This document shows, in pieces, positions 35,066 to 64,000 of a stretch of 64,000 bases of DNA (positions are counted from its first letter, which is position 1; every line of letters begins with the position of its first letter). The notes below the pieces were generated by a model. It did not search any database, was not told where the DNA came from, and worked only from the letters and a program-made list of their open reading frames with translations. Origin of the DNA: Selaginella tamariscina (taxonomy: Eukaryota > Streptophyta > Lycopodiopsida > Selaginellales > Selaginellaceae). The stretch is from the NCBI GenBank assembly GCA_003024785.1, contig PUQB01000449.1, positions 85,374 to 149,373 on the forward strand. Direction: 5' to 3'. The position numbers and the translations under genes are program-made.

Positions 35066-35973
35066 CTAACATATGAAAATGATATTCATATTTGGAATTT
35101 AGTCATGTACCTTCTGTATACTCATCAGTGTTGTCAATGAGAACTGCTCTAAGGACTTTAAAGAGGCTTGAAAGGTGATTCCTCATGGATGTGATGGTGC
35201 CGATAGTTAGGTTCTCTTACTTGAAATGATGCCATGAAAGTGAACTTCTCTTTTATACATGATAACTAGATTTTATATATCCAAGTGTTGCCATAAGTGG
35301 TTGTGTCTCTTAAAGATGATGATTGATTAGTTTTATTGAAGATGCTATGATGCAAGTGGCCATTAAACAATACATACAAGTTATAACTAAAATGGCATGG
35401 CTATAGTCCCATTTCCTAATAATTAGCAATTTTAGCTATTTAATTAGCATTTTCTAATATTAAAGGAATATTCTTTAGAATATATGTTTGAAAAGAGAAT
35501 ATTCATTAGAATATTCTATTTTGTATTCTACCCTTTAATAAATTATAGCATTCATTGAACAAAATTAATAACATTATAAAAGTAGAATGTATTAAATTAT
35601 ATAATATTTGCCTAATATAACAATTAAGGAAGAGCATAAGAGGTACATTATATAATATGATGTTGTTATTAAATATTAATATTTAAATATAACATTATTA
35701 ATTAAAAATTTGTAGTAGTAATAATATATATAAAATCCTATAATAATATAGTCAATCTTCCATATCATTTTTTAAATTTATATAGTTAAGTATACAATTG
35801 GTACTATTATTAAGAGTTTATAATATATTATGAATATTAAATATATGATATTTTATAATTGTAATGCTTTAAGCTTCAGAAATATACATTCCTTTGTAGT
35901 TTTGTTAATCGTGACTTATCAACGCTTCTTGACATCCACCCATATCGAATGGATTTAACATTTATAAAACATG

Positions 35974-38900
35974 CTAGGTCTTTTTGATTGGGAGACCATG
36001 TTTTCTTAGGCATCCATTATATTTCGCTCTCCTTCTCGTGTCGCCTTTTTTGTGGTTTGAACCATGCAACCTTAACAGTACTATTTTTTGTGTTACTTCA
36101 GGTTGTGTCGTAATTTGACCCATCCAAATAGGCTGATTATATGACGCATCTGGAGTAATGAGAACCATCATTAGTTTTTGAAGATCCTTGCAGCAATCAA
36201 AGTATGCTTTAGGTTTTTGGTTCCTTTGTCCAACAAAGTGTGGGGTTTGCACTTCCACATCACTACTGGCTTCTATGTCGTCTATGCTCAGTGATGTCAT
36301 TTCAATCTCCTCTCGCCACCTTGTTTTAGGCCAGAAAGGGTGTTGCAATTCTGTACTTGTGACAGTAGGCCCTTCCAACTCTCGAACAACAGTCTCCCAA
36401 TAGTTGACCACATGCTTATATAGTTCTGAGTAACCAGTTGCCTTATCAGAATTCTTTGGCATCGATTTTTGAACCCATGCCACATATTTTTTGATGCCAT
36501 CAATAATAACCTCTTGTTCCTTGAGCTGGGCACTCAATGGAATAGGGTCTGGTTGTCCTTCTGGGAGAAGTGGCTTTCCATCCTCTCCACTTTTGAAGAG
36601 CATTAAGCCCTCTTTCGGTAACCACTCCTGCTCTGATGGCCGTAACTTGTACTGCATAATAGGTATACCATCTCGTATGGAGAAAAAGAATTGTAGCGGC
36701 ACAAGGTGACCAACTAAAGAATCACTCCCTTCTTTTATATACTCCTTGAGAAATTTTTTGAAGTCTGGCACCTCAGTCACAAGCAAAGCACAACTTTTTT
36801 TGGAGATGCAATTTTCAAAAAGATTCATCATATGCGGTAAGGTAAGTGCACTTGTCCTTTTTGTAGAGTTGGAGACCTTGCTGAAGAACGCATCAATATC
36901 TTCATGAGTGTGACCAACCATAAGGAAACTGAGCGTGATTGTTTCAAACACACCTTTGGCAACAAGCATTGACAAGTATGCTAGCACATATCTAGAAAAT
37001 AAAAGTAAGTATGAGCTTGAGAAACCCTTAAGTAAAATGATTTACCTATTTTTGTTCTCGCCTGCACAATTATCCATCTGTAAAAGCAAATGACGAGGAA
37101 GCTTATTTGATGTTGAGGACACATGTACACTATTTGAGCTAGATCCCTCCACTGAACCTGAACTCTCAACAGGGCCATCTGTTTTTTGTGCAGGTTGCTG
37201 ACAATGCCTCTCATATTCCCAAGTAGCCTCAAGTGCAGATGTGTTCATGAGAGCATTATGTAAAGGTTGAAGGTGTTGTTTCTTCACTTTGAGATCACTG
37301 ATAGGACTTGTCTGTGAGTGGGCTTCAAGGTTTCTGAAACACATGGCTAACGACCCAATAGTGAAATTGGAGTCGCTAGACCAATGTGGAAGTGAAAAGT
37401 GTCCATATGACTCACAACCGTGTCCATGTGTTAGCACACCTGTCAATGAAATCGGAAGTTTCATGACATTTCCAAGGCACTTTGGTGTTGCAAAGAGCTT
37501 TGGAATGCTGGTCTTTGAATGATCCATCTTGTCATGGATCAAGCACAGGTACTCTGATGGGCGTGACACAGAAAGCATGCGGTGTGCATAGTACTGAGAC
37601 CGGCAAGTTTGTTGTGCAATCATGTGGGCCTCCATCTTCCTTTGAATGGTAGTGATCTCCACCAAGGTTTTTGCACAAGCCTCTGCAGCCTTCAATGATG
37701 TACAAGTGTCACACTTAGAAAAGCTAGAGTGTTTTGCAATCTCCACATCCTTAAAATGAGTATTCCATATGTTGTTGAAGGTACCAGTGCAGATTGCTTG
37801 GAGCCCCATCAAACTGAGGCACTTGTTCACATGTTCACACAGTTTCAATTGAGTGTAGATTGAAGGTAAAACCTTGAGATTTTCCCTGACCCCTGCATTT
37901 GTGGTTCGGCATTTGTGAGGCATCCTGTCTGCATTTGCTTCCACAAAAGCCTTGAGTATCTCTATGGCTGCCATGATGTGAGAGCGGGTTTTGACCAAGC
38001 GAGTGTTCCCATGAACTGAGGTTCGCGCTCCATCTAGCCACTCATCCCTCCGACGGTAGAACGTGGTCTTTGGGATCCCGTATATACTGTACCAAGCTTT
38101 GAAGCAGATGGCCACCTTATTAAATACCATGGATGTACTCTGATAACCTGTGTCCGAGGCCATTCCATCAATACACCCAGTTAGTGCAGCATATACAAAC
38201 TCATGCCTTTGCTTTTGGGTGAGCATACGAAAGACATGTCTACATTGGGTAATTTCATTCCGGTCTGCCATCTGACAACACTTCTTCTTGCAACAGTCAA
38301 TCGTGGAAATGCTCGTAACACTTTCGGAAGATGTAGGATCCATCTTTACCCTCTTGCTGAAACTTGCAGGGGAAGATCTACAACCCATGAATCGCCTTTT
38401 TCTTACAATAGGACCAATGCAAGGAACCTCTTCAAATATGAGTTGTTCTTCCGGGTTGTTATTATTGAAATCCAACCCAGAATATGTTGAACCATCTTGC
38501 CGTCTTAATTCAGATGTTCGCCACCTCACGAGGGATCCAGGATACAATGTGCCATTAGGTGAAACCTCTGTCACAACTACACCCACGAAGTCGGACCCTA
38601 GTTTCTCTTCTGACACTGCTTCCATTGGATTTATAGCTGTGATGATGCCTCTTCCGACTTCAATCTCACGAAGAAAGAGAATCACCTCATCCATCACAGC
38701 AGGCAAGCCATCATCTGGTAAACTCGTGCTACTATTTGTTTGTGACTCTGCATATTCTGTGTCAGCCTTGACTTCATCCAAATTCCACAATACAGGAGAA
38801 CCCTCCTCAAATTCCATTCCCAGAACCTCAACATGCTTGTAAATGGTGTTCACCCATACGTACACACAAGATCCTTGGGCAATATTGTGACATGATGCAT

Positions 38901-38982
38901 TATTATCTCGAACTTCCACAGTTCCAGTGCCAACTATCTCGTTGTTCCGAAGAAGACATACTTTATCTCCAGTATTAAACAT
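35974..38982 (-). CDS. DUF7869-type putative DDE transposase, two coding exons
   Basis: Coding exon A is 38,982-37,046 and exon B 36,991-35,974, joined across a 54-bp intron (donor GTAAAT, acceptor TTTCTAG); 984 codons, no internal stop. The N-terminus (MFNTGDKVCLL, GSCVYVWVNTIYKHVEV) resembles a domain seen in plant transposase-associated proteins. A Cys-rich block (CCKKKCCQMA, residues about 240-260) precedes WYSIYGIPKTTFYRRRDEWL, a probable helix-turn-helix. The RNase H-like core shows IHDKMDHSK (Asp about 484), LLQMDNCAGENKNR (Asp about 637) and FLMVGHTHEDIDAFFSKV (about 668-685), the hallmark order of the DUF7869 family; the Asp/Glu residues are candidate catalytic residues. The first Met in exon A lies 6 nt after a splice acceptor (TTATGTGCAG), so the start is preceded by a 5' UTR intron holding a palindrome array. 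This is the only intact long gene of the element. Transposase activity is inferred. Confidence 0.8.
36992..37045 (-). other. 54-bp intron of the transposase-like gene
   Basis: GTAAAT...TTTCTAG on the minus strand. Removing it joins GENKNR to YVLAYLSMLV in frame, restoring the contiguous core motif. Confidence 0.85.
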
Positions 38983-38988
38983 ATTGTC

Positions 38989-39854
38989 CTGCACATAAAT
39001 AATTGTATTATTTATGATATCTGTTTATGCAATATTTCTAAGAAATCTGAATTACGGTTACTTAATAATATGCATATGCAATAATACATAATTATGTTTA
39101 GAGATAATATCTCATGTTTGATTAATACAACTGATGGGCGGGATTAATCCCGCCCACGAATCCCTCCGACGAGGAACGGTCGGCGGGATTAATCCCGCCG
39201 CCGACTCAACCCCTTCGGAGAGAGTCGGCGGGATTAATCCCGCCGGACTCCCCCGAGGAAGAGCGGCGGGATTAATCCCGCCGGCTCTTCCTTGTCGGAG
39301 GGAGTCCAAGGCGGGATTAATCCCGCCCACAATTCTTACGACGGGGAATGGGTGGCGGGATTAAACCCGCACATAACTCTCTCCAAAACTATGATTTCAA
39401 AGAGATCTCGGGATAAATCCTGTCCCCAAATCCTTAAAACAGGGAGTGGTGGCGAGATTAATCCCGCCACCCCTTCCCTGCCTCCTAAAATGGTTGGCGG
39501 GATTAATCCCGCCGACAACTCTTTCTAATAAATTCTGGTAACTCTTCATCAGTTGAGAAGGTTATCGCGGGATTAATCCCGCCACTCTTTTTCAGTGGCG
39601 GAGAAGCATTGCCCGAAGATGGTGGCGGGATTAATCCCGCCACCTCTTCAAAGAGGCGAAAAAGAAATGGCCGGATTAATCCCGCCGCCCCGGTTAACCT
39701 AGAATATTAAGTTAAAAGGATATTTAAACGGGATAAATCCCTAACGGAATATATTATAATCCTAATGCATTCTAAACCCCTAAATTGTAATTTTAAGAGA
39801 GAATGTAAGAGAGTGAATCTTATAAGTATTTTTAAATTTGTTTATAATACTTAC
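38989..39854 (-). other. 5' UTR intron of the transposase-like gene, containing palindrome array 1
   Basis: Donor GTAAGT at 39,854 (minus strand, after GCTGTTTACAA), acceptor TTATGTGCAG ending at 38,989. Both sites recur in the second copy. Length 866 bp. Inferred from signals and copy-to-copy conservation. Confidence 0.6.
39136..39690. repeat. Palindrome array 1 (GGCGGGATTAATCCCGCC)
   Basis: About twelve copies of an 18-20 bp palindrome. The first five centres (about 39,145; 39,190; 39,235; 39,273; 39,318) are 38-45 bp apart; later ones are 44-66 bp apart and more diverged ('ggataaatcct', 'ggcgagattaatcccgcc'). Spacers such as 'tccctccgacgaggaa' also occur as reverse complements, making larger nested palindromes. 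Confidence 0.95.
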
Positions 39855-40060
39855 TTGTAAACAGCACTGAAGGCGCCGTGCTTTCCTATAAAGAATAGCA
39901 CCCAATTTAATCTCGCTCCTGAGATGATCACTATGAAGAAAAAAGAAGATCTAAAGAGTGAAAAATACAGAAATGAAGAAACCCTTGCCGGAGAAAGAAC
40001 CAGATCTGAATTTGAGTGGGAAATTAAATGCATTTTCAAATTTACATGTCAGACCGACAA
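39855..40060 (-). promoter_or_regulatory. Putative 5' UTR exon / leader of the transposase-like gene
   Basis: This block is conserved in all three occurrences (here, 60,060-60,260 and 61,551-61,756) and ends in a GTAAGT donor on the minus strand. A 62-codon minus-strand ORF here (MKMHLISHSNSDL...) runs into the donor but is out of phase with the coding exon, so the leader is probably untranslated or carries an upstream ORF. The donor is mutated to AT in the 60.06-kb copy only. Transcription start not determined. Confidence 0.5.
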
Positions 40061-41290
40061 TACATATGTCAGAAATTCAAATTTTTTAAAAAGAACAGAA
40101 AATAAAATTTAAGATGAGTTGACACAAATATCCGACACTCTGACATATATACTCTCCAGTTCCAATGAGTATTTTAAAATTGCATTTAATGTTATTCAAG
40201 TGATTCAAGCTGTTTAATATTACGAAATTTTAGACTATATTCTACATTCTTAGTATTCAAGTATATATATTATATATATATATATATATATAAATATATA
40301 CTTATACAATAAATAAATTGATATATTATTATGTATCATTTAAAATATATTCATAGTCTGTTTATTATTATTATTTTCTTAATTACTCGAGTATTTAGTT
40401 TTCATTTCCTAGTATCAATGGGATATTCTTTAATATTTTATTAATATTTGAAGAATATTCTAATATTAAACCTGATTATCATAATTAAATTAGTCTTGTT
40501 CTTAATTATTGCAGTAATTATTCTACATTTGTATATATTAATGGGATTTTCTCAATTAATTTGTTATTATTTCAAGAATATTCATGTGTTAAACCTTATT
40601 ATCAATATTAAATTAATACACACTATGAACATATTTTAAATTATACATAATAATACATCATTTTATCTAATATATAGTCATATATAGTTTTAATAATATA
40701 TATTAATATCATTTCCTTAATTACTTGAGTAATTAATCTTCTTTATATTAATGGGATATTCTTTATTATTTTCTTATTATTCCAAGAATATTCCAATATT
40801 AAACATGATTATGATAATTAATTTAGTTAATTATTTGAGTACTTAATTTACATTTGTATATATTAATGGGATTTTCTCAATTAATTTCTTATTATTTCAA
40901 GAATATTTCAATGTTAAACCTTTTTATCAATATTAAATTAATATATATTATTAAAACTATATATGGCTTATATTAGATAAAATCATATATTATTATGTAT
41001 AATTTAAAATATGTTCATAGTGTGTTTATTAATATTATTTTCTTAATTATTCGATGTTTGTTTTGCACACATATATAAACACAATCATAAATTTACACAC
41101 GCATTACAAGAACTTACAAAAACACATATGCACACACATGCACAACCCTAAACCAAACTGAAGAAATAGGTTGCTTCTTTATTGAAAACATCATGTTCAA
41201 CGCATGTATGATATATGTACTCAATCTGTGTGACTGTATGTAACACATTGAATTTACATGTGTAATATTTATATTAAGCTTGTTGGGAGC
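40061..41290. other. AT-rich spacer of the element
   Basis: Strongly AT-rich with repeated 'ttaatgggatattctttatt' and 'caagaatattc' words arranged as degenerate tandem units of about 300 bp. No ORF. Near-identical sequence recurs at 61.75-62.95 kb. Confidence 0.7.
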
Positions 41291-41774
41291 AAACCCTAAA
41301 CCCTAAACCCTAAACCCTAATATGTAACACAATGAATTTACTCATGTAATATGTATGTATGTCTGTGTGTATACACGTGTGCATGTATATATGTGTACTC
41401 TGTATGTATATATGTGTACTTTCTGTCTTCTCTCATACATACACACCATGCATGATCCATGTTAATATGTACTGTCTCTCTTCTCTCAAACATACACACC
41501 ATGCATAATATGTACTCGGTCTCTCTAATATTATGTACTAATATGTATGTATGTCTGTGTGTATAATACACACCATGCATGATCATAATATGTACTGTCT
41601 CTTCTCTCATATACTATGTATGTATATCTGTGTATAATATGTGTAAGTATATATGTGTACTAATATATGCAATGTGTACAAAAATAATTTTTCAACACTC
41701 TCTCTTCTCTCATACATACACACCATGCATGATCCATCCTAAATCCAAAACCCTAAACCCTAAACCCTAAACCC
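41291..41774. repeat. Interstitial telomere-type repeats (teloboxes) with RY-motif cluster
   Basis: CCCTAAA arrays at 41,291-41,320 (four units) and 41,747-41,774 (about four units) bracket a cluster of the word 'acaccatgcatgatccat'. The RY core CATGCATG is at 41,448, 41,574 and 41,724, with a shorter CATGCAT at 41,500. The arrangement is repeated in the second copy. Confidence 0.9.
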
Positions 41775-42136
41775 ATGTAATATGTATGTATGTCTGTGTG
41801 TATACACGTGTGTATGTATATATTATGTGTATTAATATATGCAATGTGTATGTATGTATTGATACACATGAAACTTTAACACTCTCATGGACACACACAT
41901 GTTAAATCCCTGCATGATTTATATTTTTGAGGTGTATGTGATACACCCACGCACACGCACGCGCTAATAATATAATGAAAGAATATTCGTTTAGGGCGAA
42001 TCTATATTTTATTCTTTTTAGGGTTTAAGTATATTCTCAGAAGGAATATTCTATTAGGGTTAATATATATATTTAATTCCTTTAGGGTTTAGGTATATTC
42101 TTAGGGTTTCAAAGAGCGCGGCGGCTGTGCACACAG

Positions 42137-42433
42137 GTGAGATCTGTGTGTGTGTGTGTGTGTATGTATGTATATATGTATAGGAGTGTGCGTATAAATT
42201 TATTTATTAGTTTTATCTCTCGCACACACACGCACACTCCTGTGTATGTATATGTGTGTGTGTTTGTTTATCTGTATGATTTTATTTGTTTCGCTCACAC
42301 ACGCATACACACGATATACATATACACATATATATATATATACCTATATACATATATATATACATATATTATGTGTACCAGTATCTGTAATTTTTTTTTA
42401 TTGATCTATCTCTCCCACACACACGCACACTGC

Positions 42434-42529
<96 letters not shown>

Positions 42530-43424
42530 CAATGCATATTAACAAATAGTATACAACACTAGTTTATATATATGCTTATATATTCATATGGGTTATATAT
42601 CTATATACACACATATATATGTGTGTTTATCTGTATAATTTTATTTATTTATTAGTTTTATCTCTCGCACACACACGCACACTCCTGTGTATGTATATGT
42701 GTGTGTGTGTGTGTTTGTTTATCTGTATGATTTTATTTGTTTCGCTCACACACGCATACACACAATATACATATACACATATATATATACCTATATACAT
42801 ATATACATACATACAACACTAGTTTATATATATGCTTATATATTCACAGACTCTCTCCTTTCTCTATGGATTATATATCTATATACACACATATATATGT
42901 GTGTGTTTATCTGTATAATTTTATTTATTTATTAGTTTTATCTTTTGCACACACACGCACACTCATGTGTATATATGTGTGTGTGTGTGTGTTTTGTTTA
43001 TCTGTATGATTTTATTTGTTTCGCTCACACACGCATACAACAATATACATATACACATATATATATACCTATATACATATACATACATACAACACTAGTT
43101 TATATATATGCTATTATATTCACAGACTCTCTCTCTTCTCTATGGATTATATATCTATATACACACATATATATGTGTGTGTTTATCTGTATAATTTTAT
43201 TTATTTATTAGTTTTATCTTTTGCACACACACGCACACTCATGTGTATATATATGTGTGTGTGTGTGTTTGTTTATCTGTATGATTTTATTTGTTTCGCT
43301 CACACGCATACACACGATATACATATACACACATATAATACCTATGTACACACATATATTATGTGTACCAGTACTGTATAATTTTATTTATTTATCTATC
43401 TCTTGCACACACACGTACACTCCT

Positions 43425-43479
<55 letters not shown>

Positions 43480-43545
43480 TATATATATATGTGTGTGTTT
43501 ATCTGTATAATTTTTTTATTTATTAATTTTATCTCTCGCACACAC
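42137..43545. repeat. CA/TA-rich minisatellite, about four units of roughly 270-290 bp
   Basis: Each unit contains 'ttatctgtataattttattt', 'ctcgcacacacacgcacact', 'tttgtttatctgtatgattt' and 'caacactagtttatatat'. A (CA)n(TA)n tract lies at about 42,437-42,528. The ORFs over this region are products of the repeat composition. Confidence 0.9.
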
Positions 43546-43562
43546 GCGAAGCCCCTCGAGCG

Positions 43563-45085
43563 GCGAGATTAATCCCGCCGCTTTAGGTTTATAGCCTCGG
43601 CGGCGGGATTAATCCTGCCGCTATATGGTTGGGGCCTCGGCGGCGGGATTAATCCCGCCGCTCACCCATGCCCTGTGCGGAATGCGGCGGGATTTATCTC
43701 GCCGGCAATGGCCTATGTGAAGGCCTTAATGGGCGGGATTAATCCCGCCGGATCCGCGCAGGCATTTACAGGGGATGGGCGGCGAGATTAATCCTGCCGC
43801 TCATGAGGCTAACCGAAGAGCCTGCATGAAAGATCCTGCACGGAAGGCTAACCGAAGAGCCTGCATGGCATGTCTTGCGCGTAAGGCGGCGGGATTAATC
43901 CCGCCGCTCACCCATGCCCTGCGCGGAATGCGGCGGGATTTATCTCGCCGGCAATGGCCTGTGTGAAGGCCCTAATGGGCGGGATTAATCCCGCCGGATT
44001 CCGTGCAGGGCATTTACAAGGGATGGGCGGCGGGATTAATCCGCCGCTCATGAGGCTAACCGAAGAGCCTGCATGAAAGATCCTGCACGGAAGGCTAACC
44101 GAAGAGCCTGCATGGCATGTCCTGCGCGTAAGGCGGCGGGATTAATCCCGCCGCCCAGGGAATTCACGCAGGACATGAACGGCGGGATTAATCCGGCCCC
44201 ACGCTCATGCCCTTCGCGGAGGGCGGCGGGATTAATCCCACCGCTCAGGCACTTCCGCAGGATATAAGCGGCGGGATTAATCCCGCCCCCACCCATCCCT
44301 ATTCAAAATGCCGCAGCCAATATATATGTGTGAGCACATGATTTACGAGAGGGCGGCGGGATTAGTCTCTCCAAACCTTCATTACCCGGTGGCGAGATTA
44401 ATCTCCGAACCTTCATTACCCCATTGGTATGTTGAATCAATCCCGACTAACTCTGTCTGAGACGGAGAAGGTTTACAAAATACCAATGGAGGGAACTGAG
44501 AAGGGTGGTGGGATTAATTTCACCATCCCTTACATGTTGGGCGGGATTAATCCCGCCGCGTACGCATGCCCTGCACGGAATCGGGCGGGATTTATCCGCC
44601 GCCATTGGCCTGCCTGAAGGGCCTAGGCGGTGGGATTAATCCGCCCGATTTCGCACAGGGCATTGGTGTTCGGCGGGATTAATCCCGCCGCATAGGGACC
44701 GAGTGAAGGCCCTGGCCGGCGAGATTAATCCCGCCGAGTCTTCAATGTCTGTTGGAGGAATGAATCCCGCCACCCTTCTCTTTTTTCTCCATTGGTGAGT
44801 CGGACCAATCCTAAACGTTTCTGTCTGAGACGTAGAAGGTTTTCAACATACCAATGGAGAGAATTGGGAAGGGTGGGGAAATTCATTTAACCATCCCTTA
44901 CATGGTGGGCGAGATTAATCCCGCCTCCTTTCTGGAGTCACTGAAGGGGTGTGAGAAATAAATCCTGCCCAGTTCTCTCTGAGACCGAGAAGGGTGGCAA
45001 GATTAATTCCGCACTCCCGTTCAAGGCCTCCAGAAAGGTGGCGAGATTAATCCCGCCCACTCTTTCAGGAGGCATTGAAGGGGGC
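43563..45085. repeat. Palindrome array 2, including two 246-bp tandem units
   Basis: More than twenty copies of GGCGGGATTAATCCCGCC and variants (GGCGGGATTTATCTCGCC) in a GC-rich block. Two tandem higher-order units of 246-247 bp start at 43,641 and 43,887 and a third diverges at 44,134. Spacers share 'cctgcatggcatgtcctgcg'. The array lies directly upstream of the rightward genes. Confidence 0.95.
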
Positions 45086-45208
45086 GAGATTAATTTTCCA
45101 TGTGAATATATATGTGTATTAGTATATATAAGTTGCATATCTCATTTTATTTACTTTTATCATCTTATCATAATATTTCGAGTAAAAGCTAGGAATCTAT
45201 GTAAAACT

Positions 45209-45287
45209 GTCCAGAGCTCACATTTGTGGTGGTTCTAAAACGAAATGTTATCTTTCTTTTGCACTAACACAAATGTGAGCTTCGGAC
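45209..45287. repeat. 20-bp inverted repeat (hairpin) upstream of the rightward gene
   Basis: GTCCAGAGCTCACATTTGTG at 45,209-45,228 pairs with CACAAATGTGAGCTTCGGAC at 45,268-45,287 (18 of 20 positions), with a 39-nt loop. May be a regulatory hairpin or bipartite binding site. Confidence 0.75.
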
Positions 45288-45395
45288 AATTAATTACGTC
45301 TACTTCTCTCTGTGTATTATTTTTTGTATATTCGGGTTTATACAAGTGTGTGTGCGTTTTTATATAATTTATATTTATAGTATATTATTTTGCAG

Positions 45396-45518
45396 AAGGA
45401 CGATTTGATCAAACAAGGAGATCGAGTCATTAGTATGGAGTCGTCGTCAAATTCTGGGTAATAATTAAAATAAAATCTGTTATACTCGGATACTTGAACT
45501 AATCATTTTTGTATTCAG
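45396..45518 (+). other. Possible first exon and intron of the ParB-MTase-like gene
   Basis: An exon-like segment at 45,396-45,457 contains an ATG at 45,435 and ends in GG|GTAATA. An intron to 45,518 ends TTTGTATTCAG. Joining it does not give an open frame with the main ORF unless a small frame change is assumed, so it may be leader sequence. Confidence 0.35.
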
Positions 45519-45560
45519 ATGTGGAATTAGGTGACATTAAAGACAAGAGCAAGAGAAGAG

Positions 45561-48534
45561 ATGGGCAGGGGGATTCTAGAATCAACTTGGCCATATTTTA
45601 AGATAAATGGGGAAGCGCTTGGAGCAACCATGGTTGCTGTCAAATTAACCTCTGTCACATCTCATGGACAAGCAAAACAATGGAAAGTAGATTCGCTAGT
45701 CAAGCACCCGAAAGCAGGCTGCGAACCCAGATTGGACGATGCTCGACAGATATGCCTTGTTCCATCCAATGTCACGTTCTCGGATCCAGAGGTCGTCAGT
45801 TACAACATTAATCTCGGGTGGTTTTGTCGACTTGTGGATAATGACGTTCACGTGTTCACTAATGATGTTGACCTTGGAGTTCTTCTTCAACTCAACGAAA
45901 GCCCATCTATGGAGGGGATCCATCTGGATGTCTACTTCGAAGATCTTCAGACTCATCGAGTAGGTGTATTGTCAGGAGATATTGCTTCACAATACAGAAA
46001 ATCAGCAAGTGGAGCAATCTTCCCTCTTCACATTGAAGAAGAACACAGCGACATCATAAGGAGATTGAGAAGGTGGCTCGGTCTCAGGTTCTCTACAGAT
46101 CACGTTCAATTTGCTTAGGAAGCTTCGGGAGCTGGAGAGTGTGCCGAGAACACTAGAACAGCTGCAGTCGGGGATCACACATGTTGATTCGGATCGCAAA
46201 AGAAAATCATCAATCGTTTTGTCAGCTGCACCTGTGGCATCTCATGCTGCAATAAGTCACAAGGAAATGATGTTGGATGATAAGATTTATCCTTGTAGGG
46301 TTAAATATTGCAGCGTCAACCCAAACTTCAATTACAGGCCACTCAACCAGGAACGTGTAGCTGAGCTCATGGAGAAGATGAAGGACGACAATTCTTATAC
46401 CGTTCCACATAATGCTGTTTTGTGTCCATACTATGAAAGAAGGAAGGGTGCTGACAAAGTCTGGATCACAACACCAGAACAACTCATGAAGATTCAGACG
46501 GAGAATAAAAGATCTATCAAGTACTACATCATTAGTGGCCAGCACACAATAACGGCAGCCCAACGACTTCTCGATGAACACAACAAAGGAACGATGGCAA
46601 CAAAACTTTCCGAGCATACCCGTGAGAAGCTGACAAAAAGATCGGCGTTTTTAGCTAAGCCGAATCTCACAATCGAGCAGTACCATAAGTTATCGGCGGA
46701 ATGGGACGCTGCCGACACCAACCACTACAACAGCAAAATATGGGAGAAGTTTAAACACACGCGAGCCGTGTGGGAATCTCTTGCGACCACAAAGAGCTAC
46801 CGCAGGGAATACACAATCTGCGGAATACCGGGTAAGCAAATTGTTTGGGCGGGATTTATCTCGCCGGTATATTAATCTGTCTTTTTCCTCAGAGAGTTGA
46901 AGAAATTGCAGCAGTTGATTTTGCCCAGGTGGGCGGGAAGGAAACATCCTTTCTGATGATGTTGATTTCTTGCCCCGAAGATAGGATCTTTGCCAAATGG
47001 TTGGGGATTATGGAATCCTTTTCAAAAGGAACACTGAAGAAGAAGCAGACAAGTGAAGGGGAGCCCTCAGAAAAGTCTGCAAAGAAACCCAGTAAGACGC
47101 CGAAGGCTAAGTCTGTTCAATCTACAAAGGATGTAGACAACGATTTCAAGCTCACATGGTTGAAGCCTTTAAATGGAACAACGATGGAGGAGATGGAAGT
47201 CTTGGCTGATTTGGTGATCGATGGCAAACTACAAATTAATAACAGCAGCCCAACCTCTCCTTTTCATCTCAAGGCAATGGAGTTGAAGACGGTCAGGCAT
47301 TTCAAGGAGTGGTTGGGAATACACTGCCACAAACTGGGTTGGACCTCGACTTCAACATATGAAGAGGTTAGCAAATATTTGCATGTGACGAACGATGATA
47401 TGCTTGTCGAATGGGTGAACCAATCGGAAGATCTAGGCAAGAATCTATTGCACGCCAACGCCAAAAAGGAGAACATTGGGATGACGCCTTCTCTTATGGC
47501 AGTCCTTCAGCAGCGGAGAACCGAATTGAACCTTATAAAGGAGGATGCTACGAATCACGACAAGCCCTACAGATGTTTGTTGTTAGATTCGGAGACTTTA
47601 TGGGGTAACATCACTGCTTGTAGGAAACCGTTTCAATTGTTCGTGATGGATCGGCGGGTGTCAAAAAATCTTTCGACAGATAGGGCACTAGAGGATCTGG
47701 TGGAGAAACTTAGCCGTGCAAGCATATACATAGAAGGTATTTATTATTGAATTCATGCTTGCGCTCTTCACTGATACCTACTTTTTCAGGTATTTATTTC
47801 TTGATTCTTGCTCATGTCACCGATACTTTTGCCTTCGCCTTCGCCAAGAAGAATAGACATCGTTGGACAGGATTTTATATGAACGATGCTAATCCCAAGT
47901 GCATTGATACTGTTGTTCACTTGGTTGTTAGGAATGCGCCAAACAATTTCAAGCTTCCAAATGACTGGCCAGGCATCTGTTTGCACTCCAACGGCCCTGA
48001 ACCTCCATCCGATACACCGATAGGTATGAGTGACGTATTCGGCAATGTACGTTATCCAAACATTACAAGTCAAGCGGCACGGAGCATCGTCAACTTGATC
48101 AGGGGTCCTCACAGTGATGCGTGGGTTTTTGACTACTGCACTAGGGGGTCCGTCTTGAAGGAGTGTTACCTTCGGCATACATGTGTGTTTGCCGTTGAAA
48201 GGATAAGACCATGGTTGAGGACCTGAACAAGTGGATAGATTGGGTCTCAACTGAGTACCCCAACGAATCCATAAAGGCGTATTTGAGAAAGTTCCCTCCA
48301 GATAAGTGCGATAGCTCTGAAGGTGAATCTGGTTCAATCTCGGAGTCTGAGAACGAACATCAATCAGATATTAGACCGGAAGTTATCTCGAGGAGTACAG
48401 AACATTCGCACACTCCAGGACCCATGGAAACATCAATAGAAGATGCAGAAGATCTTGAACCATCTCACAAGCGGCTTAGACCTTCTTCGCCTCATTCAGA
48501 AGGTAATAGCGAAGAAGAATTGATAATGAATTGA
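45561..48534 (+). CDS. ParB-like/Srx-fold protein fused to a degenerate methyltransferase-like domain
   Basis: Model: 45,561-46,831, 46,897-47,736 and 47,790-48,534, with GT-AG introns of 65 and 53 bp. Frame changes near 46,105 and 48,205 fit losses of 1-2 bases in short runs. The unknown N-terminal region (185 residues) is followed by a ParB-N-like segment: YRPLNQERVAELMEKMKDD, CPYYERRKGADKVWITTPEQ, YYIISGQHTITAAQRLLDEH. SGQHTITAAQ stands where GERRxxAA is usual, so the nucleotide-binding Arg appears missing. After a Lys-rich linker comes an MTase-like fold in permuted order: LFVMDRRVSKN where DPPY/W is expected, then AWVFDYCTRGSVLKECYL and TCVFAVERI resembling motif I (D.F.GSG ... GVE). A Ser/Glu-rich acidic tail ends it. 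ParB-N plus N4/N6-type MTase fusions are familiar from phages and bacteria. Catalysis looks lost here, so DNA binding is more likely. About 950 codons in all. Confidence 0.55.
46848..46865. repeat. Single array-type palindrome inside the first intron of the ParB-like gene
   Basis: GGCGGGATTTATCTCGCC lies entirely within the 65-bp intron 46,832-46,896 and is the same variant seen in array 2. Confidence 0.9.
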
Positions 48535-48645
48535 TAGAGTGATGAATAGTTGTAAATGAGTGTAACATAAGGCATTTTTGTATATTTCTTTTATATTTGT
48601 ACAGAAAATAAATTCTCAAGGATTAATGAAGCTTTTAGTTCAAAC

Positions 48646-49984
48646 ATGGGTCACACATTAACAAGGTAAATAATATACCTTGATAATTTTAAGGTCAGCT
48701 AATTATCATTTTGCAGATGTAATGAAATAATTGAGAACATGGATTTTCAGCATTGCCATGAGGTAAGAGAGGGGTTTGGCGACAATTTCTTGTGCCACAT
48801 GTCAGAATGACAGAGTTCATGCAGGAAATGGATAATAATGCAGCTCAAAACATCGTTACCATGGGGGCCACTTCATCATCATTTTTATTGGCTTCAGTTC
48901 CGAAATCAATTTCTTCAGCGCATGCAATATCTGAATCTTGTAAGGATGATGTACAATTAAATGATGAAGGGATAGGCAACGAATAGTGGCAACGGATAAA
49001 TGTGAAAGGGAGCAAACAAGTGATTTGCAAAGTATTCAAGAGGCAACGCTATCTCATGTTACTCATGGCCATATTGTGTTGTTGGATGTCAATGGTGTTC
49101 TGCTTCATCGACAAAGGCCCAGGATAGAAAAACAGAAATCAAACAAGGAGATTTCATTCCTTGTCATGGTAAATTTCGATATGATATTATTTTTCGTCCA
49201 GGGTTGGATCGTCTCTTTCAAAAGCTTAAGGAGATGGGTGCGCTTGTGGGGATTTGGTCATGCATGCAGATTCATAACTTAACACCGCTGTTGAGTTTAC
49301 TTAAGAAACATTGTAGTGTTGCAGAAGAGGTGATTCGTAAAGATTGGATTTTTGACCAGCGAATGTGTCATAAACCTCTCGAATTTCACAATATAAGAAA
49401 GGAAAGCAAGCCATACTTCTTCAAGAATGAAAGAATAATTGGGACTCATGGGGAGATCAGTCGCTTAAGGATAACGAAGAACACATATCTTAGTAGTAGA
49501 CGACTCTCCTCAGAAGGCTATGCTCAACCAAAACATTGCTTGTATTCATCCAATCACTTTCGATCCATATTCTGATACCGATATCATGGATGAGCTAGTG
49601 AACTACTTGGATACGTGCCTCAGAAAGAAGAATCTCGAAAATTTTTGTGAGCAGTATCCACCGTATCATACATTTCCTGAAGCTTTTCTTTCTCGTGATA
49701 TTGAATTTTATAAAATGAAGGATAGCAACCGGGCGCTTTATAATATTATTCTTAAGGAACGTCAGTTTTTAGATGAGCCTTTATGCAGACCTTCTCTTAT
49801 CACATCTTATGTATTAACAAGGATGGCAACTCCCAATTGCATTCGTGAGAGTGTTAAGTGGTGGCAACAACATCAAGATATTGACCAAAATGATTTGATT
49901 AATCCGGAGAGTGATGATTTAGACAAAATGAAAAGATTTCTTTGTATGATAGAAAAAAGTATTTATAAAAAATTAACATGTTGA
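48646..49984 (+). CDS. FCP1-like HAD-family phosphatase, frame-broken
   Basis: Possible first exons are ATG 48,646-48,665 (donor GTAAAT) and 48,716-48,769 (donor GTAAGA). The main body reads HIVLLDVNGVLLHRQRP near 49,070-49,125, the HAD nucleophile motif in the D-x-N-G form found in some plant FCP1-like proteins (DxDGT in canonical enzymes). Then FRYDIIFRPGLDRLFQKL, VGIWSCMQIHNLTPLL, DWIFDQRMCHKPLEF and VVDDSPQKAMLNQNI, the characteristic order of FCP1/SCP phosphatases, and finally a unique helical C-terminal part ending at 49,984. Frame changes near 48,985, 49,125 and 49,495 each fit loss of 1-2 bases in a short run. The first Asp and the DDSP motif are kept, so phosphatase activity is possible but the Asn substitution makes it uncertain. 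Confidence 0.65.
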
Positions 49985-50246
49985 TAAGAAAATGATTTCA
50001 TTTGTAATTATGTTTGATAGTATTTCTTCATTATTGTAAACTATTTTTAGAATAATATGAATATTCTAAGATATTTTAGGAATATTCCTTACTAAGTAAG
50101 GTTATTGAAGGATTAATTAATTAATTAATTAATATTTAAGGCTTAATTACATATTAATTAAAATAATTTAATTAAAACTTAAGTATATTAGTAATTATTA
50201 TATTCCCATTTTTCCCATTTTCATGCCCACTTTAGTTACAACGTGC
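49985..50246. other. Right subterminal region and inverted terminus of the giant element
   Basis: AT-rich DNA with an (ATTA)n stretch near 50,111-50,135, ending 'catgcccactttagttacaa', the reverse complement of the left terminus. Confidence 0.75.
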
Positions 50247-50429
50247 ATGTACCTAGGAATATGTAGGAAGTACATGACTAAGTTTCAAATATGGACACCA
50301 TTCTATATGTGAAAAGAACTTAGACTTGTAGTGGAGGCTAACTTCGAGGAAAAAGCTACCTAGGAGTCCACTAACAAGGTAAGAGGGATGAAGCACACCC
50401 TTGATAAATATCACCTCTTACTCCTATCC

Positions 50430-54000: not shown

Positions 54001-56565
54001 CACCAAGATCTTCCTACCCTCCGAGGCCCCATGCTTTCAATGGGATACATCCCAATGAGACCTTTCTTTACGTCCCATGCCCCCGAAGGAGATAAAACCT
54101 ACTCACGCATTGCTCCTAGCAGGACAAATCTTGTTATGCCCTCATGCTCTTTGCTTATGGTGAAAAAATCCCATCGAGGCTTCTTGCCCTCATTGGCCAA
54201 CATAAAAATTGATGTCATTAGTAAACTTGTCAATATATTTGGTAAAATTTTATGTCATTTATTTTACAATGTGAAATTGAGGTGACTTTTAAAAACAACA
54301 ACATGAAATTATTTCTAGGCTGTGGGATTCTAGAATAACTTGTCATATTATAAGATAGATAAGAAATAAATAGGGTCAGTCATGTTATTATTTTGGCTTA
54401 ATGAGGTTTACAACATGTAAGCTTGGATGGTGAATGTTCAATATATCCACTTAATCCACTTCGACGTTGTGATTTCCACAACATAAAGGTCAGCTACGAC
54501 TCTTCTAATTGATGGTCTTGCCGAGTTAGTGAAAATAATGTTCATGTCTTCACCAATGATGTTGATCGAGGTGTTTTTTTAGAATAGTCGAGAATCTTTC
54601 CATATATGAAGTGATGCTAGTGTTTACTACAAGATCTTATCACACATTAGGTGTCAAGCTTCGCAATGACACTGTGAGGGAGATCCAATGAGCCTTCTTC
54701 CATATGAATCTCACTCAATTGTGCTAGGCAACTATGGATGCAAACTTTAGACCTTAAGAGTGTCATGTTAGCCATCACCCTAAATCAGTCACCTAGAAAA
54801 GAAAATTTTTATAGCTTATTAGAGGACCCACTAGTGTCTCAAGTTATTCTTAACCACAAGGAAAGTATACATATTATATTATAGCAAATTGAGATGAAAA
54901 GAAAAAATGAAATTTGTTATAATATATATATATTATAATATTTATATTTATTTATTTTATAGCAAATTAGAATAAACTAAATAAATAATTTCCATTTCTA
55001 TAAAAATAGTTTATCATATTATGATATATATGTTTAATTTGTGTTAAATATTATAAATTATAAATACATTTAGTTGAAGAATATGAAATTTTTATTGAAA
55101 TTTGAAAGTAAAAATTAAAGTTTTATAATTTTAAAAATTATATAAATAAGAAAAACTTCAAGGCTATACATATTTAATTCTTTTGAATTGAAATAAAAAA
55201 CTTAGTATATAATTATTTCAAATGTATACATGCAATGAATATTAGATAAATCAGCATAATGCTAATTAATGATCTGTTGTGGCAAAAAAGTTAATTAATA
55301 TGTGAAAATTTCAAGGCTATAATATATAGGAATTATGAAAATCAATATATTAAAGCAACACATACTAAATAATCTTACATGCATATGGATTCTTGTAAGG
55401 ACTAATATGTGCATATTTTTAATGTGTATATTATATGCTCTCAAATTATATATGTACTTACGTACTTTAGCTAAATAATAGAGTAATATAATTAAATTTA
55501 ATTCACATATAAGTAGGCTATATATATCGACCCCTTTTCATGCACCTTATTTTTATATATGTATGTGTAAGAATATTCGTTAAAATCTTATAAGTGAAAA
55601 AATTTGCTGAAGTATAAAACAAAGTTGCTCATAGGATTTGAAATGTAAAAAAAAACACAGGGCTGCCTAATGGAAGCTTAAATGTATTTTTGTGGCCCAC
55701 TTTTGTTTTTTGGTGTATGCACCCTCTCTCTTATTTATGGGAGGGGGGGGGGAGGGGGAGGGAAATTGAAGGGCTAGCGAGCTTGTGAAGAAGATGAAGG
55801 ACAAAAATTGTACATCATTTCTCATAAACCAATGTTATGTCCTTATATTCAAGATGAAGACATTGTCAAGGAGGTGTGGATGAATAAAGAACTTCAAAAG
55901 GTACCAAAAAAGGAAGGTAAGACTTTTGAGATACACCATTATCAACCAACACACAGTAACATTAGCTTAGTGCCTCATCAACGACACAACACGAGAAATG
56001 TTAAAATTATTTGTAAAGTGGGACATACCAACACCAACCATTATAACAACAAGATATGGAAGAAGTTCCTACACACACGAACAATGTAACACAATCTTGA
56101 ACAATCACTTAGAGCAAAACATGGGATATGCAAAGCATGTCATATTGGGTAAGTAAATTTCTCAGTACAATTTATCCCACCCACAATTTTGTTTGCTAAT
56201 TCCTCCACCCTTAAAAGGTTAAAGAGATTGTAGATGTGAATTTTTTGATGTGGGTGGGAGTTAGCCATACTTCATGATAATGCTAATCTCCTACCTTGAC
56301 GTCGAAGTTTTCGAGAAGTGAGTGATCATCATGTGGACATTCGCAAATAGAACACTCAAAGGATGAAATATAAGTCATCACTTGTGTAGAAAACATCCTC
56401 CTTGAAGAAACTAAGTAAGCCGCCAAAGCCTAACGCTATCCCACTTCCAAAGGAAGTGGATAGCAACTTCAAGTTCACATAGTTAAAGGTCCTTAATAGA
56501 ACAAATGTGGAGGAGATGTGGGTGTTAACAAATCTAGTACTCAATAGCAAGCTGCAAATTACAAG
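54001..56565 (+). pseudogene. Old relic of palindrome array 2 and the ParB-MTase-like gene
   Basis: 54,030-54,190 shows decayed palindromes ('aatgggatacatcccaatg', 'gcaggacaaatcttgtta') at about 30-45-bp spacing. 54,315-54,860 matches the first ORF of the rightward gene: NNVHVFTNDVDRGVF corresponds to DNDVHVFTNDVDLGVL, and an SHKE-type block follows. AT-rich DNA (54,890-55,760, with a G-rich tract at 55,742-55,764) interrupts it. 55,770-56,150 matches the ParB-like part (LVKKMKDKN, TNTNHYNNKIWKKF). An intron-like segment follows, then 56,215-56,565 matches the linker exon (VKEIVDVNF; a stretch equivalent to FKLTWLKPLN). Stops throughout. It shows the gene order array-ORF-ParB is an old unit. 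Confidence 0.75.
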
Positions 56566-56756: not shown

Positions 56757-57356
56757 ATGCATGTTGTAACTAAAATGGGCATGGCTATAGTCCCATTTCC
56801 TAATAATTAGCAATTTTAGCTATTTAATTAGCATTTTCTAATATTAAAGGAATATTCTTTAGAATATATATTTGAAAACAGAATATTCTTTAGAATATTT
56901 TATTTTGTAATCGATCCTTTAATAAATTATAGCATTCATTGAACAAAAATTAATAACATTATAAAAGTAGAAGGTATTAAATTATATAATATATTATATT
57001 TAAGATTGTATGGGCCTAATATAACAATAAGGAAGAGCATAAGAGGTACATTATATAAATATTGATGTTGTTATTAAAATATTAATATTTAAATATAACA
57101 TTATTAATTAAAAATTTGTAGTAGTAATATAATATATAATATATAAAATCCTATAATAATATAGTCAATCTTCCATATCGTTTTTTAAATTTATATAGTT
57201 AAGTAAAACAATTTGGTACTATTATTAAAGAGTTTATAATAATTATGAATATTAAATATACGATATTATTATAATTTTGTAATTGCTTTAAGCTTCAAAA
57301 AACATACATTCCCTTGCAGTTTTATTAATCGTGACTTTATCAACGCTTCTTAACAT

Positions 57357-58994
57357 TCACCCATATCGAACGGATTTAACATTTATAAAACATGCTGGGT
57401 CTTTTTGATTGGGAGACCATGCTTTCTCTAAGTATCCATTATATCTTTCGCTCTCCTTCTTGTGTCGCCTTTTTTGTGGTTTGAACCATGCAACCTTAAC
57501 TATACTATTTTTTGTGATTACTTCATGTGTGTCGATAATTTGACCCATTCAAATAGGCTTGATTATATGACACATCTGGAGTATGCTTTAGGTTTTTGGT
57601 TCCTTTGTCCAACAAAGTGTGGGGTTTGCACTTCCACATCACTACTGGCTTCTATGTCGTCTGTGCTCAGTGATGTCATTTCAATATCCTCTCGCCACCT
57701 TGTTTAGGCCAAAAAGGGTGTTGCAATTATGTACTTGTGATAGTAGGCCCTTCTAACTCTTGAACAACAGTCTCCCAATAGCCGACCACATGCTTATATA
57801 GTTCTGAGTAACTCGTTGCCTTATCAGAATTCTTTGGCATCGATTTTTGAACCTATGCCACATATTTTTAATGCCATCAATAATAACCTCTTGTTCTACT
57901 GACTCTTGCATTTGTGGTTCGGCATTTGTGAGGCATCCTGTCTGCATTTGCTTCCACAAAAGCCTTGAGTATCTCTATGGCTGCCATAATGTGAGAGCGG
58001 GTTTTGACCAAGCGAGTTTCCCATGTACTGAGGTTCGCGCTCCATCTAGCCACTCATCCCTCCGACGGTAGAACGTGGTCTTTGGGATCCCGTATATACT
58101 GTACCAAGCTTTGAAGCAGATGGCCACCTTATTAAATACCATGGATGTACTCTGATAACCTGTGTCCGAGGCCATTCCATCAATACACCCAGTTAGTGCA
58201 GCATATACAAACTCATGCCTTTGCTTTTGGGTGAGCATACGAAAGACATGTCTACATTGGGTAATTTCATTCCGGTCTGCCATCTGACAACACTTCTTCT
58301 TGCAGCAGTCAATCGTGGAAATGCTCGTAACACTTTCGGAAGATGTAGGATCCATCTTACCCTCTTGCTGAAACTTGCAGGGGAAGATCTGCAACCCATG
58401 AATCGCCTTTTTCTTACAATAGGACCAATGCAAGGAACCTCTTCAAATATGAGTTGTTCTTCCGGGTTGTTATTATTGAAATCCAACCCAGAATATGTTG
58501 AACCATCTTGCCGTCTTAATTCAGATGTTCGCCACCTCACGAGGGATCCAGGATGCAATGTGCCATTAGGTGAAACCTCTGTCACAACTACACCCACGAA
58601 GTCGGACCCTAGTTTCTCTTCTGACACTGCTTCCATTGGATTTATAGCTGTGATGATGCCTCTCCCAACCTCAATCTCATGAAGAAAGAGAATCACCTCA
58701 TCCATCACAGCAGGCAAGCCATCATCTGGTAAACTCGTGCTACTTTTTTGTTTGTGACTCTGCATATTCTGTGTCAGCCTTGACTTCATCCAAATTCCAC
58801 AATACAGGAGAACCCTCCTCAAATTCCATTCCCGGAACCTCAACATGCTTGTAAATGGTGTTCACCCATACGTACACACAAGATCCTTGGGCAATATTGT
58901 GACATGATGCATTATCATCTCGAACTTCCACAGTTCCAGTGCCAACTATCTCGTTGTTCCGAAGAAGACATACTTTATCTCCAGTATTAAACAT
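57357..58994 (-). pseudogene. Internally deleted transposase-like gene of the second copy
   Basis: Compared with 35,974-38,982 it lacks about 1.37 kb at the junction near 57,897 (from the C-terminal exon to within exon A), removing all three candidate catalytic motifs and the coding intron, plus about 55 bp near 57,580. A T-run shortened by one near 58,358 shifts the frame. The N-terminal half (start at 58,994) is otherwise nearly identical to the intact copy. Non-autonomous. Confidence 0.85.
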
Positions 58995-59149
58995 ATTGTC
59001 CTGCACATAAATAATTGTATTATTTATGATATCTGTTTATGCAATATTTCTAAGAAATCATGAACTGCGGTTACTTAATAATATGCATGTGCAATAATAC
59101 ATAATTATGTATAGAGATAATATCTCATGCTTATTAATATAACTGATGG

Positions 59150-59890
59150 GCGGGATTAATCCCGCCCACGACTCCCTCCGACAGGAACGTGGCGGGATTA
59201 ATCCCGCCGCTCTACCCCTCGGAGGAGTCGGCGGGATTAATCCCGCCACTGACTCTACCCCTTCGGAGAGAGTCGAGGGAATTAATCCGCCGCGGTCTCC
59301 GACGAAGAGAGGATTAATCCCGCCGGACTCCCTCCGACGAGGAAGAAGCGGCGGGATTAATCCCGCCGGGACTCCCTCCGACGAGGAAGAAGCTCCGACG
59401 GGAAGACGGCGGATTAATCTCCGCCGCCAGATCTTCCTCGTCGAGAGAGGGGCGGGATTAATCCGCCGTAATCCTCCGACGAGGAAGAGGCGGTGGGATT
59501 AATCCCGCTCACAACTCTTACGATGGGGAATAGGTGGCGGATTAATCCCGCCACAATCTCTCCGAAGCTATGATCTTAAAGAGATCTTGGGATAAATCCT
59601 ACCCACAAATATTTAAAACAGGGAAGTGGTGGCGAGATTAATCCCACCACCCTTCTCTGCCTCCTAAAATGGTTGGTGAAATTAATCCGCCGATAACTCT
59701 TTCTAATAAATTCAGGTAACTCTTTATTAATTGAGAGAGTTATCGACGGGATTAATCCCGCCGCTCTTTTCAGAGGCGGAAAAGCATTGCTCGAACTAAT
59801 TCTGCCATGGCTATCAAACAGATGGTGGCAAGATTAATCTGCCACCTCTTCTAAGAGGCGAAAAAAGAAATGGCCGGATTAATCTTGCCT
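59150..59890. repeat. Palindrome array, second copy, first unit (diverged)
   Basis: About 14 palindromes at roughly 45-bp spacing. Many have lost one or more G/C positions ('gcggattaatc', 'ggtgaaattaatccgcc'). Confidence 0.9.
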
Positions 59891-60059
59891 CCCCGGCTAA
59901 TCGAGAATATTAAGTTAGAAGGATATTTAAACAGGATAAATCCCTAACGGAAATATATTGTAATTCTAATGCATTCCTAAACCCCTAAATTCTAATTTTA
60001 AGAGAGAATGTAAAAGAGTGAATTTTATAAGTATATCTAAATTTGTTTATAATACTTAT

Positions 60060-60260
60060 TTGTAAACAGCACTAAAGGCGCCGTGCTTTCCTATAAACAA
60101 TAGCACCCAATTTAATGTCGTTCCTGAGCTGATCACTATGAAGAAAAAAGAAAATCTAAAGAGTGAAAAATAAAGAAATAAAGAAACCCTTGTCGGATAA
60201 AGAATCAGATCTGAATTTGAGTGGGAAATTAAATGCATTTTCAAATTTACATGTCAAACC
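60060..60260 (-). pseudogene. Leader exon copy with destroyed splice donor
   Basis: Homologous to 39,855-40,060, but the donor GT reads AT on the minus strand (plus 'acttatttg' instead of 'acttacttg'). Confidence 0.6.
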
Positions 60261-60609
60261 GACAATACTTATGTCAGAAATTCAAATTTTTTAAAAGAAC
60301 AGAAAATAAAATTTAAGATGAGTTAACACAAAAACTAATACTCTGACATATATACTCTCCAATTCCAATGAGTTTATAAAATTGCATTTAATGTCATTCA
60401 AGTGATTCAAGCTGTTTAATGTTACGAAATTTTAGTAATTATTCTACATTCTTAATATTCAAGTATATATTATTAAGTTTATATTATATATATATATATA
60501 CACTTATACAATAAATAAATTGATAAATTACAGTTACTTAATAATATGCATATGCAATAATACATAATTATGTTTAGAGATAATATCTCATGTTGATTAA
60601 TACAACTGA

Positions 60610-61385
60610 TGGGCGGGATTAATCCCGCCACGAATCCTCCGACGAGGAACGGTCAGCGGATTAATCCCGCCGGACTCCCCCGAGGAGGAAGAGGCGGCGG
60701 GATTAACCCCGCCGGCTCTTCCTTGTCGGAGGGGAGTCCAAGGTGGGATTAATCCCGCCGACTCTCTCCGACGAGGAAGGGAGTCCGACGGATTAATCCC
60801 GCGCCAACTCAACCCCTTCGGAGAGAGTCGGCGGGATTAATCCCGCCTTGGAACTTCCTCCTCGGGGGAGTCCGGCGGGATTAATCCCGCCAGACTCCCT
60901 TCCTCGTCGAGAAGAGTCGGCGGGATTAATCCCGCCTTGGACTCCCTCGAGGAGGAAGAGGCGGCGGGATTAATCCCGCCGCCTCTTCCTTGTCGGAGGG
61001 ACCAAGGCGGGATTAATCCCGCCCACAATTCTTACGACGGGGAATGGGTGGCGGGATTAAACCCGCACATAACTCTTTCCAAAACTATGATTTCAAAGAG
61101 ATCTCGGAAAATCCTATCCCCAAATCCTTAAAACAGGGATGTGGTGGCGAGATTAATCCCGCCACCCCTTCCTGCCTCCTAAAATGGTTGGCGGGATTAA
61201 TCCCGCGACAACTCTTTCTAATAAATTCTGGTAACTCTTCATCAGTTGAGAAGGTTATCGGCGGGATTAATCCCGCCACTCTTTTTCAGTGGCGGAGAAG
61301 CATTGCCCGAGAGATGGTGGCGGGATTAATCCCGCCACCTCTTCGAAGAGGCGAAAAAGAAATGGCCGGATTAATCCCGCCGCCC
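60610..61385. repeat. Palindrome array, second copy, second unit
   Basis: About 15 well-conserved palindromes. The 3' part (61,010-61,385) is nearly identical to 39,310-39,690. Confidence 0.9.
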
Positions 61386-61550
61386 CGGTTAACCTAGAAT
61401 ATTAAGTTAAAAGGATATTTAAACGGGATAAATCCCTAACGGAATATATTATAATCCTAATGCATTCCTAAACCCCTAAATTGTAATTTTAAGAGAGATG
61501 TAAGAGAGTGAATCTTTATAAGTATTTTTAAATTTGTTTATAATACTTAC

Positions 61551-61756
61551 TTGTAAACAGCACTGAAGGCGCCGTGCTTTCCTATAAAGAATAGCACCCA
61601 ATTTAATCTCGCTCCTGAGATGATCACTATGAAGAAAAAAGAAGATCTAAAGAGTGAAAAATACAGAAATGAAGAAACCCTTGCCGGAGAAAGAACCAGA
61701 TCTGAATTTGAGTGGGAAATTAAATGCATTTTCAAATTTACATGTCAGACCGACAA
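61551..61756 (-). promoter_or_regulatory. Leader exon copy with intact splice donor
   Basis: Almost identical to 39,855-40,060 including the GTAAGT donor. Confidence 0.5.
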
Positions 61757-63550: not shown

Positions 63551-64000
63551 TGTAATATGTATGTATGTCTGTGTGTATACACGTGTGTATGTATATATTA
63601 TGTGTATTAATATATGCAATGTGTATGTATGTATTGATACACATGAAACTTTAACACTCTCATGGACACACACATGTTAAATCCCTGCATGATTTATATT
63701 TTTGGGGTGTATGTGATACACCCACGCACACGCACGCGCTAATAATATAATGAAAGAATATTCGTTTAGGGCGAATCTATATTTTATTCTTTTTAGGGTT
63801 TAAGTATATTCTCAGAAGGAATATTCTATTAGGGTTAATATATATATTTAATTCCTTTAGGGTTTAGGTATATTCTTAGGGTTTCAAGAGGCGGCGGCTG
63901 TGAAATCGGCGGCGGCTGTGCACACAGGTGAGATCTTGTGTGTGTGTGTGTATGTATGTATGTATATATGTATAGGAGTGTGCGTATAATTTTATTTATT
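63551..64000. other. AT-rich and CA/TG-rich spacer, start of the minisatellite
   Basis: Near-identical to 41,775-42,215. 'ggcggcggctgtg' is duplicated near 63,892-63,918. Cut by the window end. Confidence 0.8.

Follow-up and report, generated by a model that had tools for sequence, protein, structure and literature searches.

Giant DNA transposons that carry genes besides a transposase are known in algae, including KDZ and EnSpm elements (PMC12477816, in the part of that text available). For example, the same part describes Sola1-1_Ec32 from Ectocarpus, a 21.5-kb Sola1 transposon in which a gene for a ParB plus DNA methyltransferase protein lies opposite the transposase (PMC12477816). Similar ParB-methyltransferase proteins are reported there from green and red algal transposons, and it is suggested that they may attach to the transposon that encodes them and mark it epigenetically. 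The Sola superfamily itself has a DDD transposase, a 4-bp target-site duplication and terminal inverted repeats; it is present in a moss, and its members are mostly 2-9 kb long, with some above 15 kb (PMC10741241, likewise in the part available). Here, we analyse a window of 64,000 nucleotides from the lycophyte Selaginella tamariscina (C781:85,374-149,373), together with the genome around it (300.7 Mb, 1,391 contigs). The window holds an element, copy A, that is very probably a giant land-plant DNA transposon of the cut-and-paste type, with a transposase of the DUF7869 family.

In copy A, the DUF7869 gene is read leftward, while a ParB/methyltransferase (MTase)-like gene and an FCP1-like (NIF) gene are read rightward. 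Thus, the element is like Sola1-1_Ec32 in being a giant DNA transposon whose ParB-MTase gene runs opposite to that of the transposase, a likeness drawn from the published description. It differs in that the ParB-MTase gene of the brown alga makes a single protein of 1104 amino acids, and in that the available part of the source mentions neither an FCP1-like gene nor palindrome arrays, both of which are found here (PMC12477816). The element had been called undescribed-looking in an earlier reading of the sequence alone, which is here called the original prediction. This must be narrowed, as a ParB-MTase gene opposite a transposase is published for Ectocarpus. A search of the open-access literature found no land-plant element of this kind, no NIF/FCP1-like third gene and no palindrome arrays; the land-plant carrier and the FCP1-like gene therefore look new. 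The algal transposons with ParB-MTase are the subject of Iyer 2011 and Petroll 2025, and are said to carry similar proteins (PMC12477816). The comparison suggests that the ParB-methyltransferase gene of algal transposons also rides a giant transposon of a land plant, in company with a transposase of the DUF7869 (DDD) kind and a gene for a phosphatase.

Ends, copies and target sites

The inverted termini that had been predicted for copy A are there, with its bounds slightly corrected to 35,374-50,248 (Table 1). The ends agree over about 27 bp, and the left end of copy L050 differs from the right ends by two mismatches. Most other left ends read in the genome start with ATGCAAGTTGTAACTAAAATGG.

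Neither end is confined to this locus. A genome search with the left end gave 40 scored matches at 98-100%, from 277 candidates. With the right end it gave 79 match rows, from 523 candidates; 40 of these match right ends at 88-100%, the remaining rows being short inner matches. Four further copies (C1293, C1285, C837 and C802) were followed from their left ends. The first three run on through DUF7869, the region of the arrays and both right-half genes (ParB-MTase-like, then NIF) as far as the right end, although in C1285 an inner run of N (1,739 bases) takes up some of array 2 and the beginning of the ParB-MTase-like gene. C802 has both halves up to the equivalent of position 49,717 in A, followed by N, an assembly gap. 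Both halves do, then, repeat in the genome, as originally predicted; the right terminus is not unique, and the right-half genes recur between the same pair of termini.

Substitution divergence among five copies is 0.27-0.87% in the left half; in the right half, C1285 diverges from the other copies by 0.42-0.73%. Gapped bases exceed substitutions in 13 of 14 pairwise comparisons, so that some of the frame breaks described below may be assembly errors. Of 20 right ends, six have a left end at full-length distance, and the other 14 have none in the 801-bp slot where it would lie. From the other side, ten left ends were taken, of which two were excluded since the contig ended before the right slot; three of the remaining eight have a right end at full-length distance, and five have none in the slot. 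The element is an abundant and recently active family.

Duplication of the target site was counted in 12 copies with both flanks, and 132 swapped flank pairs served as the control. (C102, where the left flank is N, and C802, where a run of N precedes the right end, were left out.) An exact 4-bp duplication is found in five of the 12 copies (GTGT, AATT, TTAA, GAAG and ATAT) but in only 2 of the 132 swapped pairs; with up to one mismatch, the counts are 8/12 and 14/132. Lengths from 2 to 10 bp were counted. Exact duplications of 2 bp occur in 2/12 copies and 14/132 controls, those of 5 bp in 1/12 and 1/132, and those of 3 bp or of 6-10 bp in none of the 12 copies. The flank match in C1293 and L028 involves one extra base, and no flank duplication is seen in L026 and L027. 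Target-site duplications, which the original prediction had proposed to look for, are thus found, and they are 4 bp long. Together with the genome-wide copies and both termini, they support its central claim, namely that these genes belong to a giant DNA transposon in a plant.

Table 1. Coordinates of the element, its parts and related features in the window
Feature	Position	Strand	Remarks
Foldback derivative	2237..4299		two left ends, head to head
Copy A, full-length transposon	35374..50248		14,875 bp, bounded by terminal inverted repeats
Flanks of copy A	35370-35373, 50249-50252		ATAC and GTAC; 4-bp target-site duplication, one mismatch
Left terminal inverted repeat and subterminal end	35374..35415	+	ATACAAGTTATAACTAAAATGGCATGG
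DUF7869 exon with third Asp motif	35974..36991	-	GHTHEDID
Intron within DUF7869 domain	36992..37045	-	54 bp, GT-AG
DUF7869 5' exon, from first in-frame ATG	37046..38982	-	motifs HDKMD and QMDN
Palindrome array 1	39137..39686		11 GGCGGGATTAATCCCGCC sites, allowing 2 mismatches; upstream of DUF7869 gene
AT-rich, microsatellite-like centre	40000..43550		between arrays 1 and 2
Palindrome array 2	43562..45057		18 sites, allowing 2 mismatches; upstream of ParB-MTase-like gene
ParB/MTase-like gene	45435..48531	+	exons about 45435-45457, 45519-46831, 46893-47736, 47790-48531
Single palindrome-like site	46848..46865		GGCGGGATTTATCTCGCC; second intron of ParB-MTase-like gene; 5/5 copies examined
NIF/FCP1-like HAD phosphatase gene	49037..49981	+	frame broken in copy A
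Right terminal inverted repeat	50205..50248	-	reversed reading ATGCACGTTGTAACTAAAGTGGGCATG
Old degenerate ParB-MTase-like relic	54489..56561	+	segments in order, 25-59% protein identity
Copy B	56757..64000	+	left half and array 1 region; runs off window

The transposase and the placement of the element

The leftward DUF7869 gene of the original prediction stands. Both of its exons match the Pfam model PF25273 (E 2.6e-12 and 9e-27), and without the 54-bp intron its reading frame runs uninterrupted for 984 amino acids. The same Asp motifs are found in 52 aligned DUF7869 proteins. Proteins of the same family with these motifs occur in Riccia sorocarpa, molluscs, a sea anemone and lancelets. The predicted structure is an RNase H-like model, with which Foldseek alone returned nothing at E 0.001 or better. 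Judged from this model and the conserved Asp motifs, the protein is a DDD-type transposase with an RNase H fold, the catalytic Asp residues being putative choices. DUF7869, a domain of unknown function, thereby gains a likely role, that of a transposase. In the mechanism proposed here, this protein would cut both ends and insert the element, duplicating 4 bp.

Because it joins a DDD transposase to a 4-bp duplication, the element may be called Sola-like; it would lie in or next to Sola, short of being a proven member. All three of the Sola features named above are present, although here the likeness between DUF7869 and Sola is one of features only. Further, at 14,875 bp, copy A is longer than most Sola elements, for which 2-9 kb is given in the available part of the source (PMC10741241).

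It is possible, if less than probable, that the element belongs instead to another superfamily (KDZ, CACTA/EnSpm, MULE or hAT), or forms one of its own. After all, DUF7869 is set beside Sola by features and not by transposase sequence, and algae do have giant elements of the KDZ and EnSpm kinds that carry additional genes (PMC12477816, in the part available). However, Pfam at E <=1 gives DUF7869 alone for both exons, a result that would speak against KDZ only if a KDZ model is among its profiles. Elements of the CACTA/EnSpm type have, of course, CACTA ends and a 3-bp duplication, and the duplications made by CACTA, hAT and KDZ elements are of 3 or 8 bp. Here, the ends read ATGCA, the duplication is of 4 bp, and no copy has an exact one of 3 bp. 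Those of MULE elements are of 7-12 bp (PMC10741241, in the part available), whereas none of 7-10 bp is exact in the 12 copies, 11 and 12 bp lying outside the count.

Two arrays of a palindrome

The repeat-rich centre was also correctly predicted, and it comprises two arrays of an 18-bp palindrome, GGCGGGATTAATCCCGCC. This palindrome has 27,128 exact copies in the genome, and its reversed control has none. In the window, exact sites number 27 and near sites (at most two mismatches) 51, and every one of them lies inside copy A or copy B, a partial copy described below. In all five copies read, the two arrays are separated by 3.4-3.9 kb, the first standing upstream of the DUF7869 gene and the second upstream of the ParB-MTase-like gene. 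Since a copy in this sample carries 15-27 exact sites, the genomic number would correspond to about 1,000-1,800 copies of full length, which would make up 5-9% of the genome, if all of the sites are the family's.

From their sequence, the arrays look like candidate binding sites that the element carries for itself. They might, of course, be a mere minisatellite, kept alike by slippage and without function, but this is unlikely. The spacing is indeed tandem-like, near 45 bp (84 of 166 near spacings are 43-46 bp), and the number of sites varies between the five copies (31-43 at up to three mismatches), as slippage would have it. However, a slipping 45-bp unit would preserve its spacer too, and here the adjoining 26 bp have an identity of 0.30 between sites, which is near random, against 0.92 for the palindrome. 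The latter value is partly built in, because the sites were selected by likeness; the near-random spacer is the more telling. Nor does slippage sit well with arrays upstream of both genes, or with a lone intron site found in every copy examined.

The right-half genes and their possible role

Four exons make up the ParB/MTase-like gene; its introns, placed from the frame and the GT-AG sites, measure 61, 61 and 53 bp. The motif order of its protein, as we take it, resembles that of ParB. Likewise, VFDYCTRGSVLKECYL...AVE resembles motif I of the methyltransferases, and FVMDRRV would at most be a motif IV in degenerate form. Searches of Pfam, PHROGs, NCBIfam, the PDB and two protein databases with the ParB-like protein gave nothing of weight, and tblastn against phages gave a single match, at E 8. 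For the methyltransferase part, no profile in Pfam, PHROGs or NCBIfam matches. The structure model of the ParB-like protein has a pLDDT of 31.5, too poor for a fold search. The two names are therefore motif-based; with the algal precedent added, they may be apt. The gene itself is present as predicted, and its order is kept across copies, but its name has no library profile behind it.

A viral source was also considered, and rejected as the leading explanation: tblastn of the ParB-like exon and the second DUF7869 exon against viral contigs gave no close relatives.

The FCP1-like gene is better placed. PF03031 (NIF) matches it in copy A (E 3.6e-5, 23.9 bits) and in C837 (E 2e-8, 34.5 bits), both above the curated cut-off of 21.8, which bears out the prediction; against PDB sequences, the protein gave nothing at E <=1.

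All four introns placed in the element (36992-37045, 45458-45518, 46832-46892 and 47737-47789) are just 53-61 bp each. This is short for a land plant.

What might the right-half genes do? The gene opposite the transposase would deliver a protein with ParB-like and methyltransferase-like parts, for which the palindrome arrays of the element would serve as recognition sites. Bound upstream of each gene, this protein would control the two promoters, mark the DNA of the element, or both. FCP1 relatives act on RNA polymerase II, and the NIF/FCP1-like phosphatase may, in turn, act on transcription. Intact copies could supply protein for broken ones. That a protein of the element, most likely the ParB-like one, recognises the candidate arrays for promoter control or marking, with the phosphatase acting on transcription, is a tentative proposal. 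A stronger version, quite unlikely as matters stand, is a self-encoded parS-like system, in which the ParB-like protein sits on some 30-40 palindromes per element, loads both promoter regions, and marks or insulates more than 1,000 copies against host silencing. If it were true, escape from silencing would explain how the family has recently come to fill several per cent of the genome. In either version, the arrays would be the missing target of the binding suggested for the algal ParB-MTase proteins (PMC12477816, in the part available).

The reading frames weigh against a role for the protein. In a genome search with the ParB-like exon, 144 matches were scored out of 6,328 first-look candidates, and their identities span 82-100%. 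The exon is open for 477-478 amino acids in only nine of these. The commonest open length is 277, which means that most scored copies share an interruption near 46.07 kb in A. Copy A itself has breaks near 45.5, 46.07, 46.8 and 48.2 kb, some of them common to other copies; L084 has one ParB-like frame of 478 amino acids. In C1293 and C1285 the last exon has an open frame, which it lacks in A and L084.

The nine open exons in 144 lower the standing of the parS-like system, and raise that of another explanation. Here, the right-half genes would be passengers, captured by chance in the manner of Pack-MULE elements and of no benefit to the transposon. Frames broken in the copies read are what this leads one to expect, and NIF/FCP1-like proteins are, of course, ordinary and common plant genes. 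Even so, capture without benefit is rather unlikely. The other copies read have the same pair of genes enclosed by these ends; an older ParB-MTase relic, and copies at 82-90%, exist; and some of the breaks may lie in the assembly, given the excess of gaps noted above. Further, a ParB-MTase gene opposite a transposase is found in the algal Sola1 element (PMC12477816, in the part available). The role of a bacterial-type DNA-binding and modifying protein in a eukaryotic transposon becomes testable, with a candidate site that is base-exact and present in 27,128 copies.

Derivatives, relics and neighbours

The window holds other traces of the family. The left terminus that had been predicted to recur at 56,757 does so, as the end of copy B. 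This copy matches A at 88% at its left end, at 94-96% in longer blastn blocks with gaps counted, and at 99-100% in ungapped 300-bp blocks. It is without A 36,520-37,885 (1,366 bp), the segment that holds all three of the transposase Asp motifs, yet it still has extended blocks of both array 1 and the centre. Copy B is likely to be a non-autonomous derivative. Past the window end, the contig is N for at least 5.5 kb. The two further left termini of the predicted foldback are also found; its ends have diverged, with ATTATAATTAATAAAATGG on one side.

The relic predicted at 54-56.6 kb is confirmed for the ParB-MTase-like gene, but the FCP1-like part is not seen there. Since its protein identity is only 25-59%, the presence of the ParB-MTase-like gene in this genome probably predates the recent burst by a long time.

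No tRNA genes were found in the window, and nothing in Rfam reaches the gathering score. A C2H2 zinc-finger gene, which we take to be STOP1-like, lies on the minus strand at 21544-23007 and is split over several frames; it marks the DNA as that of a land plant. Around the transposon, a dispersed repeat family occurs in direct and inverted pieces at 6481-8052, 17184-19547, 33405-34954 and 50444-53489, with 63-87% identity.

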